A DNA stretch of 22,085 nucleotides from a virus, in the IMG/VR virus record IMGVR_UViG_3300036832_001165, positions 1 to 22,085 of that record, one strand, 5' to 3'. The notes under the pieces were generated by a model. That model was given only the letters and a program-made list of their open reading frames with translations, made no database searches and was not told the DNA's origin. Made by a program: the position numbers and the translations under genes. Below, in pieces: positions 1,923-22,085 of this stretch (position 1 is the first letter of the stretch; each line of letters opens with the position of its first letter).

Positions 1923-2000
1923 CCCGGGATAGGGCGGGTCGGCGTAAGCGAGTCGCTGATAAGTGACCGATATCCGTCATGACGTGCCCCGGACGCGCCG

Positions 2001-2020
2001 AAGGGCCCCGAAGGGCCCCT
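2001..2020 (-). terminator. UUCG-tetraloop hairpin downstream of the tRNA
   Basis: Read on the minus strand, the stem GGGCCC/GGGCCC, extended by a G-U and an A-U pair, closes a C(UUCG)G tetraloop, one of the most stable RNA hairpins. It lies between the tRNA and the methyltransferase that follows. No U-run follows, so it is not a textbook intrinsic terminator. It could end or stabilise the tRNA transcript, or sit in the leader of the methyltransferase. Confidence 0.5.
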
Positions 2021-2032
2021 CGCACGTTCGAC

Positions 2033-2060
2033 ACCGCTGATAAGCGGTTGGATCGCAAGT
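2033..2060 (+). repeat. Inverted partial copy of the tRNA anticodon and variable arms
   Basis: On the plus strand 2036-2060 repeats, in inverted orientation, the tRNA segment 2171-2147: GCTGATA, two mismatched bases, then CGGTTGGATCGCAAGT (23 of 25 positions). There is no T-arm or acceptor stem beside it, so it is not a tRNA. In the minus-strand transcript that carries the tRNA this stretch reads as the complement of the tRNA's anticodon loop, 3' anticodon stem and variable arm. Confidence 0.9.
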
Positions 2061-2118
2061 GCCCACCATCATACGCGAAGCAGGAACCGTCGCAAGCGGT
2101 CCCTGCGGGGTGCTGCGG

Positions 2119-2202
2119 CGGAGGCGGTGGGATTCGAACCCACGGGACTTGCGATCCAACCGGGTATCAGCCGGGTGCCTTAGACCTCTCGGCCACGCCT
2201 CC
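2119..2202 (-). tRNA. Class II tRNA with GAU (Ile-type) anticodon
   Basis: On the minus strand all arms are present: acceptor GGAGGCG/CGCCTCC (7 bp), D-stem GCC/GGC with a GG-containing loop, anticodon stem CCGG/CCGG (with a C-U mismatch at pair 27-43) closing the 7-nt loop CTGATAC, a long variable arm GGA-TCGCAAG-TCC, and T-arm GTGGG-TTCGAAT-CCCAC. The base after the acceptor is G and CCA is not encoded. The long variable arm and G73 are features of serine tRNAs, yet U33 is followed by GAU, which reads isoleucine codons. The gene has its own TACAAT promoter element. The identity of the amino acid loaded cannot be read from sequence; a Ser-type body with an Ile anticodon could mistranslate or be a pseudo-tRNA. 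Confidence 0.88.
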
Positions 2203-2205
2203 GTC

Positions 2206-2239
2206 AAAACCCATTGTACTAAAGGGGTGTGACCGCCAA
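2206..2239 (-). promoter_or_regulatory. Promoter of the tRNA gene
   Basis: On the minus strand the -10 element TACAAT lies at 2218-2213, and a weak -35 TTGGCG at 2239-2234 with a short 15-bp spacer. Transcription would start near 2206, only a few bases before the mature tRNA 5' end at 2202. The tRNA can therefore be expressed independently of the early operon. Confidence 0.5.
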
Positions 2240-6974: not shown

Positions 6975-7003
6975 TGCGAGATTATGTCTGACATAATCTC
7001 GCA
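6975..7003. repeat. Perfect 29-bp palindrome after the integrase; candidate att core or bidirectional terminator
   Basis: TGCGAGATTATGTC, a central T, then its exact complement, immediately follows the integrase stop codon (6972-6974). It separates convergent transcription units, so a two-way terminator is one reading, but no T-run follows on either side. The half-site GCGNNATTA is shared with the palindrome upstream of the integrase, and inverted half-sites around a short centre are the form of a tyrosine-recombinase core site. It lies where attP usually lies, next to int. Confidence 0.65.
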
Positions 7004-20200: not shown

Positions 20201-21700
20201 CTAGAGAATGCGGAACTCGCCCAGGGCGGCGGGGGCGTGATCGAACCCCCACACCGCCACCGTGGCCGCGGTCAGACAGGCCAGCGACCCGGCCGACTGG
20301 CGCCGCCCCCACGCCCAGGCGTCGCCCAGAGCCCGCCGGGCGGCGTCGTTAGCCGCCGCATCCAAAGCCGGGTGGGTTCGGTACCGGACGGCGGGCGGGT
20401 CGCTCACGAGGGCGTCCAGCAGGCCTACGCAGGCGGCTGCGTACTCTCTGGCTTTCAGCCCGGTGAGCTCCAGCCCGGCCCGGCGGGCGGCGTCGGCCAC
20501 ATCCAAGGCCGGGCCGACCTCGTCGAAACACACCGCCAGCGGCCGCCACCGCTCCACCAGCTCGGTCAGCCGCTCGAGCAGCCAGCCCGCCCCCGGGCGT
20601 TGGTCGGCCACCTCCACCCGGGCGGTACCGTCCGAGTCGCGCCAGCCGGCCACGATGGCCGCGTCGGAGCGGTCGACGGCCACGTCGAAGGCCAACACCA
20701 GCCGGCCGACCTCGGGTAGGGGCGGGTTGTCGTCGGCGGCGGCCCGCCACGCCGCCAGCGGGATAACCCGGGCCGTGGTGCTGACCCATTTGTTGCCGTA
20801 GGCCCGGGCGAACTCGTCGGGGCCGAGCATGTCCAGCGCCGCCTGCATGGCATCCGGTCCCACCGTGTGCCCGTAGGCGGGATGGTACACCGGCCATGAG
20901 ACCGCCTCGCACGGGTCCAGCCGGTCGGGGCAGGACCATTCGAAGTAGCAGATCCCCGACGTGCGGCCGGCATTGACGGCGGCCCTACCGGCCTCCACCG
21001 TGCCCAGCCACCATGTCGAGGTGGCATCCCCGGCCGTGGATACCTTCCACACCTGGGCGTTCGGTCTCGTAGCTTGAGTGGGGACAATTGCTTGATCCAG
21101 TTGCGTGCCTCTGACCAGGTCGAACGCCCACGGCTCGTCGACCACCACCAGATCCGAGGTTTTGCCGTGCAGACCGTCGGGGGTGGGCGGAAAGGGGCGG
21201 ATCAGCCCGCCCGACGGCAACCATTTGATGTGCTCCGACCCGGCCGCCCGCCGCAAATGGACCTTCGGCACGAAGGGGGCCAGCAGCGGCCAGTGCTCGT
21301 TGATCAGCCAGTCCACCGCGTGTTTGCCGGACTGCTGGGTGAACCAGCAGCGGGCCTGGGGGACGATCAGGCCCCGATGGTCGAGCACCGACCCGAACAG
21401 CGTGGTCTTGCCAGACTGGCGCGGCACCGTCACCAACACCAACTGGTAGGCGAACCGGCCGGCCGCGTCGACCTCCAAAGCCACATCAGCGACATACGCC
21501 TGCCAGGGCATGAACGGCTTGCCCAACGCCTCGGCCAGTTTGGCCACCGCCGGCCCGAACGTCAGCCGGTCAGGGGTTCGGGGGGTCGCCAGCGCTGGGG
21601 GTGGGCCGGATGAGTCCGGCCAAGAAGGCATCGACGGCGTCGACCGGTTTGGCGCCTTGCGGGGTGAGGCCGGCCGCGTTGAGCGAGTCGAGGTAGACAC
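20201..21700 (-). CDS. terL: Terminase large subunit (full copy)
   Basis: This packaging ATPase and nuclease has up to 499 residues. ATPase: adenine-motif PFMPWQAYVADV (about 62-73 from the GTG), Walker A-like TVPRQSGKTT (91-100), Walker B SDLVVVDEPW (182-191) and coupling motif KVSTAGDATST (219-229). RNase H-like nuclease: acidic LVLAFDVAVDRSDAAIVAGW, VCFDEVGPALDVADAARRAG and a final Asp region near DALVSDPPAVRY, AANDAARRAL. It is complete at its C-terminus. The start is unsettled: GTG 21700 (conserved in both repeat copies), ATG 21631 (only here) or GTG 21547. All but the last overlap TerS. Confidence 0.93.
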   Translation of the reverse strand: MSTSTRSTRPASPRKAPNRSTPSMPSWPDSSGPPPALATPRTPDRLTFGPAVAKLAEALGKPFMPWQAYVADVALEVDAAGRFAYQLVLVTVPRQSGKTTLFGSVLDHRGLIVPQARCWFTQQSGKHAVDWLINEHWPLLAPFVPKVHLRRAAGSEHIKWLPSGGLIRPFPPTPDGLHGKTSDLVVVDEPWAFDLVRGTQLDQAIVPTQATRPNAQVWKVSTAGDATSTWWLGTVEAGRAAVNAGRTSGICYFEWSCPDRLDPCEAVSWPVYHPAYGHTVGPDAMQAALDMLGPDEFARAYGNKWVSTTARVIPLAAWRAAADDNPPLPEVGRLVLAFDVAVDRSDAAIVAGWRDSDGTARVEVADQRPGAGWLLERLTELVERWRPLAVCFDEVGPALDVADAARRAGLELTGLKAREYAAACVGLLDALVSDPPAVRYRTHPALDAAANDAARRALGDAWAWGRRQSAGSLACLTAATVAVWGFDHAPAALGEFRIL

Positions 21701-21866
21701 GGTTGGCGGTGCTCACCGCCTCCGGATCGTTCCGGGCCTCGGCCACATCCACCGCCCGGGCCTGGGCTCGCAGCTGGCCGCGCATGGCCTGGCCGATATC
21801 CCGCCGCTCGAGGAGCTCCCGCTCCAAACCGGCCTCGGCCCGCCCCAACCGGCGGCGTTCACTCAC
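21570..21866 (-). CDS. terS: Putative terminase small subunit (second copy)
   Basis: This is a 98-residue protein identical to the left copy except for one residue (Ala for Ser in the PTP(S/A)GDPPNP tail). It is read from the same GTG and paired with the full terminase large gene below. Several base differences from the left copy are silent. The overlap with the large subunit's GTG start reading is 131 nt. Confidence 0.75.
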   Translation of the reverse strand: MSERRRLGRAEAGLERELLERRDIGQAMRGQLRAQARAVDVAEARNDPEAVSTANRVYLDSLNAAGLTPQGAKPVDAVDAFLAGLIRPTPSAGDPPNP

Positions 21867-21994
21867 CAGCCCGCCCGTATCGGTACAAACCCGCCCAGTC
21901 TGGGCCTACAGGACACAAAAAACGACGCATCAGGCGTGCGCAAGGTGGCGCCCCCCAAAAAATCGACCCCATTTTTTCAAATTTTGGAACAGTT
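21867..21994. other. Second copy of the HNH-TerS non-coding gap
   Basis: This is 128 bp long, exactly like the left copy. Bases 21898-21966 are nearly the same as 609-677, including the T6G6-type tract read on the minus strand. The HNH-proximal 28 bases are unrelated to the left copy and A/T-rich. The equal length with replaced sequence suggests a spacer whose length is kept. Confidence 0.4.
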
Positions 21995-22085
21995 TCAAAA
22001 CCGCGTTTCATAGTCCGCCACCCCCAGCCAGTACACCAACCCCGGCGTTGCCTGCGTCTTTCTTCTGCCTGTCTGCTGGCCACCC
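21995..22085 (-). CDS. HNH endonuclease C-terminus (cut by window edge)
   Basis: The last 29 residues of a homologue of the HNH gene at 706-1005 can be read here: a GQQTGRRKTQ block, ATPGLVYWLG and VADYETRF at the stop. Compared with the left copy (GQGLVYRLG, VADYDTRF) there is one extra codon and several substitutions, more than in terS. The catalytic core lies outside the window. Confidence 0.7.
   Translation of the reverse strand, partial: GGQQTGRRKTQATPGLVYWLGVADYETRF

Follow-up and report, generated by a model that had tools for sequence, protein, structure and literature searches.

A seryl-type tRNA with an isoleucine anticodon, and an inverted copy of its own arms, in a small temperate actinophage

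The IMG/VR virus record IMGVR_UViG_3300036832_001165 (22,085 bases; "the window" below means this whole stretch) is a small temperate actinophage that encodes TerL, a portal protein, a tyrosine integrase, a RecT-like protein, and HNH enzymes. We studied its tRNA gene and an antisense element lying downstream of it. ARAGORN made a single tRNA call in the window (2117-2202, minus strand, anticodon GAT), and Rfam RF00005 matched at 2119-2202 on the same strand with 56.2 bits and an E-value of 6.6e-10. A sequence-only reading had described a class II body with all arms folded and the anticodon GAU in the loop CTGATAC; ARAGORN, Rfam, and arm parsing agree on this. In the parsed structure, the acceptor GGAGGCG/CGCCTCC pairs at 7/7 positions and is followed by the discriminator G73. 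The D-arm is TGGCCGAGAGGTCTAAGGC, and the anticodon stem is paired at four of its five positions, with C.U at 27-43. The variable arm TGGATCGCAAGTCCC belongs to a 15-nt variable region and forms a stem GGAT/GTCC of four pairs including one G.U, while the T-arm GTGGG/CCCAC is fully paired. CCA is not encoded, and GCCG stands at that place. The same reading had proposed a check with ARAGORN for a different anticodon after loop realignment. The call was GAT, and re-registering the anticodon to UGA is impossible because both U33 and A37 are in position, so this realignment was ruled out.

The bacterial serine determinants are G73, C72, G2-C71, R4-Y69, C11-G24, G30-C40, and a large variable region (PMC9976931, Table 1), and the parsed window tRNA carries 7/7 of them. 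Its anticodon, GAU, is not a serine anticodon. Among isoleucine elements the anticodon bases, A37, and C29-G41 are present; of the isoleucine determinants A73, C4-G69, U12-A23, A38, and a short variable loop, none is found, and these sites hold G73, G4-C69, C12-G23, C38, and the 15-nt variable region. LeuRS requires A73, and G73 is a LeuRS antideterminant (PMC9976931); leucine charging of the window tRNA was therefore ruled out by its G73. The suggestion in the sequence-only reading that the tRNA could be charged with serine or leucine thus stands for serine identity and falls for leucine. Against 60 actinomycete genomes, the top full-length matches were a Microbacterium tRNA with the same GAU anticodon (80%), then tRNA-Ser UGA (78%), then tRNA-Ser CGA, and over positions 58-84 many host tRNA-Ser genes were 92-96% identical to it at their 3' ends. 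The best matches in the phage database were ordinary tRNA-Ser. From the determinants and the closest matches, the tRNA body is therefore seryl. Bacterial tRNA-Ser (UGA/CGA) shares with the window tRNA the body, long variable arm, D-arm, acceptor, and all serine determinants; the window tRNA differs in reading GAU, in being a single phage gene, and in being followed by an antisense copy. As predicted from its parsed sequence, it is a seryl-type tRNA reading AUC/AUU, which host SerRS may charge with serine.

Related tRNAs were sought in viral contigs and genomes by a pattern for a class II body with the fixed loop CTGATA, and members were kept after structural filtering and hand curation, with a non-redundancy cut of 86% identity. 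The resulting family has at least 27 sequences, at least 21 of them non-redundant; these are lower bounds, and with CTGATA fixed, broken-acceptor tRNAs with other anticodons may exist. Members share a Ser-type D-arm (TGGCNGAG or TGGTCGAG type), a long variable arm, and GAU. The window tRNA belongs here by its Ser-type D-arm and T-arm, its CTGATA loop, and its position as a single gene in a mobile element. A majority of the listed members reside in temperate phages or other mobile DNA. The prophage and mobile-DNA sources include Pseudomonas (L018/L143), Cohnella (L006/L142), Agrobacterium (L005/L151), Mu-like phages of Bacteroidales (L007/L159), Rhizobium (L153, L156), Massilia (L148), and Microbacterium (L126, L154). 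Copies adjoin glnA (L126) or dnaK (L132) in a genomic setting not identified as mobile DNA. L282, also a small actinophage, is a distant relative by its TerL match in tblastx, and its tRNA sits between TerL and portal. A lambdoid RecET prophage in 11 of 5,426 E. coli genomes carries a member annotated as tRNA-Ile; a conserved 24-nt leader, CACCCCTTGCTTGCAAGGTACAAC, forming a small hairpin, stands directly before this E. coli-type tRNA (L170 9990-10013; L013). In most listed members the family gene is the sole tRNA of the fetched stretch. Many of the genes have an intrinsic terminator directly 3', and many are oriented against their neighbours.

The family is rare in actinomycetes (1/395 genomes), and a relaxed scan of the 395 genomes gave no further member. 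An exact scan of IMG/VR for the anticodon-variable sequence of the window gave no match, and when plasmids were searched by BLAST with a Rhizobium member, the matches were normal tRNA-Ser genes. L281, L283, and similar loose-pattern matches were rejected as chance or split matches. We found no description of the family in the open-licence literature, and it is apparently undescribed so far. Candidatus Methanoperedens archaea (L136, L145, L149, L152) also have a class II GAU tRNA, with every acceptor pair formed and G73 as discriminator, either as an archaeal parallel or in a mobile element of those archaea.

At least one acceptor pair is mismatched in 18 of the 21 listed non-redundant members, chiefly 2-71 and 1-72, and 2-71 is G.A, G.G, or C.C in 16 of the 21. 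The D-arm remains paired, as do the anticodon, variable, and T stems with their varied sequences, and the discriminator varies freely. The departure from tRNA-Ser usage lies on the 5' strand (normally GG) in some members and on the 3' strand (normally CC) in others. Outer-acceptor mismatches occurred in 18/24 GAU class II tRNAs vs 2/114 class II tRNAs with other anticodons, the comparison set being other long-arm tRNAs with unusual anticodons (p 1.4e-15), and among 20 single GAU genes in 26/40 outer pairs vs 8/300 inner pairs (p 5e-22); both p-values are optimistic owing to the relatedness of the sequences. On the sequences at hand this pattern is not general decay. The breakage of the outer pairs looks like a removal of serine acceptance, because most bacterial tRNA-Ser have G1-C72 and G2-C71 without exception (PMC9976931). 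The sequence-only reading had also offered an uncharged signal as a role, which suits the wider family with its broken serine-acceptance bases and suits the window tRNA less well: neither 1-72 nor 2-71 is broken in it. A fully paired acceptor was found in three of the 21 listed members, namely the window tRNA, L282, and the Rhizobium copy L153.

The window also holds a feature that the sequence-only reading missed. Positions 2031-2063 are an inverted copy of the variable and anticodon arms of the tRNA (33 nt, 85%), and 2062-2067 (GGTGGG) complements the T-stem/acceptor 3' strand. None of 20,000 dinucleotide shuffles of the 150 downstream bases did as well. L282 has, about 28 nt past its tRNA, a 14-nt stretch that is perfectly reverse-complementary to the variable arm of that tRNA, and 3 of 20,000 such shuffles did as well. 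The variable arms of the two tRNAs differ, each has a downstream reverse complement of its own at about 30-55 nt, and at the start of both elements a short run of bases can pair with the T-stem/acceptor 3' strand. The predicted duplex exceeded the tRNA fold in both cases (window, −54 vs −36 kcal/mol; L282, −43 vs −39 kcal/mol), and the cloverleaf was predicted to be destroyed when the longer transcript was folded. No other listed member had a variable-arm antisense copy: L153, L154, and L126 showed nothing significant downstream, and L141 scored 0.005 with a match away from the variable arm.

The features of the locus are collected in the table. The sequence-only reading had given the tRNA its own TACAAT promoter; the separate transcription unit and the TACAAT element hold, but the best and nearest −35-like hexamer, TTGGCG at 2234-2239, is merely 15 nt from it, so the promoter is plausible and not strong. 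By eye, the promoter regions of the window and L282 have a stretch GTCACACC...AATGG in common (15/23). The tRNA is a genuine phage gene and is probably expressed. The hairpin at 2000-2020 was missed by the terminator scan, as it has no T run.

Table. Features at the tRNA locus of the window.
Feature	Position	Strand	Evidence
Class II tRNA, seryl-type body, anticodon GAU, G73, no encoded CCA	2119..2202	minus	ARAGORN, Rfam RF00005, parsed arms
Antisense element	2031..2067	minus	Inverted repeat, shuffles, predicted duplex
TACAAT, −10-like element upstream of tRNA	2213..2218	minus	Read from sequence
Promoter-like TTGCGA-16-TATGAT, could start a separate antisense RNA	2068..2095	minus	1 found, 0.2 expected in shuffles; weak
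Hairpin GCAGGGACCGCTTGCGACGGTTCCTGC between tRNA and antisense element	2080..2106	minus	Sequence, fold
GC-rich hairpin past antisense element, possible terminator without U run	2000..2020	minus	Fold

Paralogous proteins with a DPPY methylase-like motif lie on both sides of the tRNA (1437-1922 and 2275-2877, minus), and neither has a Pfam or PHROGs match. The upstream part of the 1437-1922 protein apparently lacks a start codon, suggesting a recombination joint. An intergenic motif of the type GATAAGTGCCGTTATC recurs before gene starts in the window (~1958, ~2250) and in the two nearest phages, L021 (~1030, ~1655) and L022 (~730, ~1000), and is possibly an operator or start-associated sequence. 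The two ends of the window, 1-793 and 21290-22085, are 92% identical repeats, as would be seen if the record closed on itself and its ends came from different strains, or if it were a join of two close relatives. Directly past the integrase stands a 27-nt palindrome, GCGAGATTATGTCTGACATAATCTCGC, at ~6977-7003, with the look of a dif-like recombination site and a candidate attP; a conserved 86-bp stretch past the integrase was examined as attP and proved not to be a tRNA fragment.

L021 and L022 both lack the tRNA gene. Absence in relatives had been named in the sequence-only reading as a sign of a sequencing error or a decayed remnant; the absence holds for these two phages, but L282 and many unrelated elements carry such a gene, which rules out both a sequencing error and an isolated remnant for the window tRNA.

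We tentatively favour, at somewhat less than even chance, an expressed, serine-chargeable, mistranslating tRNA that is restrained by the antisense element. This reading starts from the observed structure, identity elements, family, and inverted copies, and would add to them expression, charging, mistranslation, and antisense control. SerRS ignores the anticodon. The host would add CCA to the window tRNA, and its SerRS would then load serine. When active, the tRNA would insert serine at AUC/AUU isoleucine codons and harm protein synthesis. A restraint on it is to be expected, because AUC, the commonest isoleucine codon of the phage, makes up 123/155 isoleucine codons in twelve phage genes and unrestrained activity would be harmful. 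The downstream element could be part of the read-through transcript or a small RNA in its own right; it would invade the T-stem, variable arm, and anticodon arm, and block folding or working of the tRNA until removed. Other family members would reach a harmless resting state by breaking C72 and G2-C71, with no serine loading.

Several points weigh against this interpretation. With AUC-rich genes, the phage too would be hurt by a strongly active tRNA, and the gene is absent from the nearest phages. Judged by their acceptor sequences, most family members look unchargeable, so a shared function need not be mistranslation. L153, the third member with an intact acceptor, has no antisense copy; the antisense cases are two only, and the match in L282 is partly a palindrome (GAGACGTCTC). 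Chance or repeated template switching may lie behind the antisense copies. The nematode nev-tRNA-Ile(UAU), a class II tRNA mischarged with leucine in vitro, gave no detectable mistranslation in vivo (PMC4300185).

The strongest rival, which we hold to be rather unlikely, is an uncharged decoy: a mimic of tRNA-Ile(GAU) that is never loaded and that would bait or block tRNA-attacking toxins, or signal via the ribosomal A site as a deacylated tRNA. It would account for the loss of acceptor-end pairing in 18/21 listed members with the D, anticodon, variable, and T arms paired and the discriminator free, and transcription units that have a terminator of their own and often run against the phage genes around them point to expression in the lysogen. 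Two documented toxin groups touch features that the family keeps or breaks: CDI tRNases cleave uncharged tRNA-Ile between 70/71 or 71/72 (PMC9071432), and MenT toxins attack long-arm tRNA-Ser at the 3' end by way of the variable arm (PMC11541572). A class I tRNA-Ile would, however, be a simpler nuclease decoy, no common toxin or partner gene was seen beside the family genes, and the window tRNA itself retains an intact acceptor and all serine determinants. A neutral relic, in which a captured host tRNA-Ser drifted in its anticodon, had its flank duplicated by a template switch, and has no present role, is improbable. The absence of the gene from the two closest phages, the 27-43 mismatch in the anticodon stem, and the lack of an encoded CCA would suit it, but decay would spare neither all arms nor the pairing of variable stems that differ in sequence, and would not settle on one anticodon and one set of broken pairs across more than 12 unrelated lineages.

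Two explanations by ordinary phage functions have very little probability. IleRS might charge the window tRNA and so supply isoleucine for phage translation; GAU, A37, and C29-G41 are isoleucine elements and AUC predominates in the phage, but the window tRNA lacks A73, C4-G69, U12-A23, and A38 (PMC9976931), has a long arm that does not belong on a tRNA-Ile, and would duplicate the tRNA-Ile(GAU) that hosts possess. The other, given the least chance of all, is tRNA-dependent lysogeny, in which integration would destroy a host tRNA gene, the phage tRNA would stand in for it, and the inverted copy would serve as the attP core. The window has a tyrosine integrase, and such actinophages exist (PMC10865867), where the replacing tRNA requires a matching host isotype. 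No normal Ser-body/GAU host tRNA was found in the sampled actinomycetes (the phage's own host was not identified), the one genome of the 395 with the pattern being itself a family member; the stem of the inverted copy does not form a matching anticodon stem in tRNA register, and the copy lies ~4 kb from the integrase. We rejected this explanation on isotype and stem register.

Known systems resemble the window tRNA in part. The nearest analogue is nev-tRNA-Ile(UAU), which likewise joins a class II body to an isoleucine anticodon; it differs in its leucine identity, eukaryotic origin, and AUA codon, and no antisense element or broken acceptor pairs are reported for it. Fionnbharth-type phages with tRNA-dependent lysogeny (PMC10865867) are also temperate actinophages with a single tRNA, but theirs matches the disrupted host isotype. 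In CreTA (PMC8501985), as would hold for the window, an RNA translation poison is under RNA control; there, CreT ties up a tRNA and CreA acts via Cascade, whereas in the window the effector would be the tRNA and the control direct antisense pairing. Large-phage tRNA arrays (loci L023-L125, L175-L251) contain many tRNAs that combine an elongated variable arm and a paired acceptor with a non-Ser/Leu/Tyr anticodon (distinct sequences: Asn-GUU 48, Gln-UUG 16, Lys-UUU 13, Met-CAU 10). These Asn, Lys, Met, and Gln tRNAs share with the window tRNA the long arm and the unusual anticodon, and differ from the family in their array setting, fully paired acceptors, and mostly cognate acceptor ends. Proline-type tRNAs in Streptomyces are a bacterial case of a mismatched body and anticodon. 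To our knowledge, such natural tRNAs are rare.

More speculatively, and doubtful as a whole, the system may be an all-RNA poison-antidote module. The poison would be the serine-loaded tRNA with an isoleucine anticodon and the antidote the linked antisense RNA, and the family would consist of orphan Ser/Ile tRNAs kept locked and unchargeable by mobile elements. Of the features of a type I-like RNA toxin-antitoxin, complementarity is present, and toxicity and neutralisation are putative. If true, a family whose serine-loading bases are selectively broken in most members, and are intact and antisense-linked in two, would show mobile DNA using tRNA in a new way. A lambdoid prophage of E. coli carries a member, which brings the question within reach of work in a laboratory strain.
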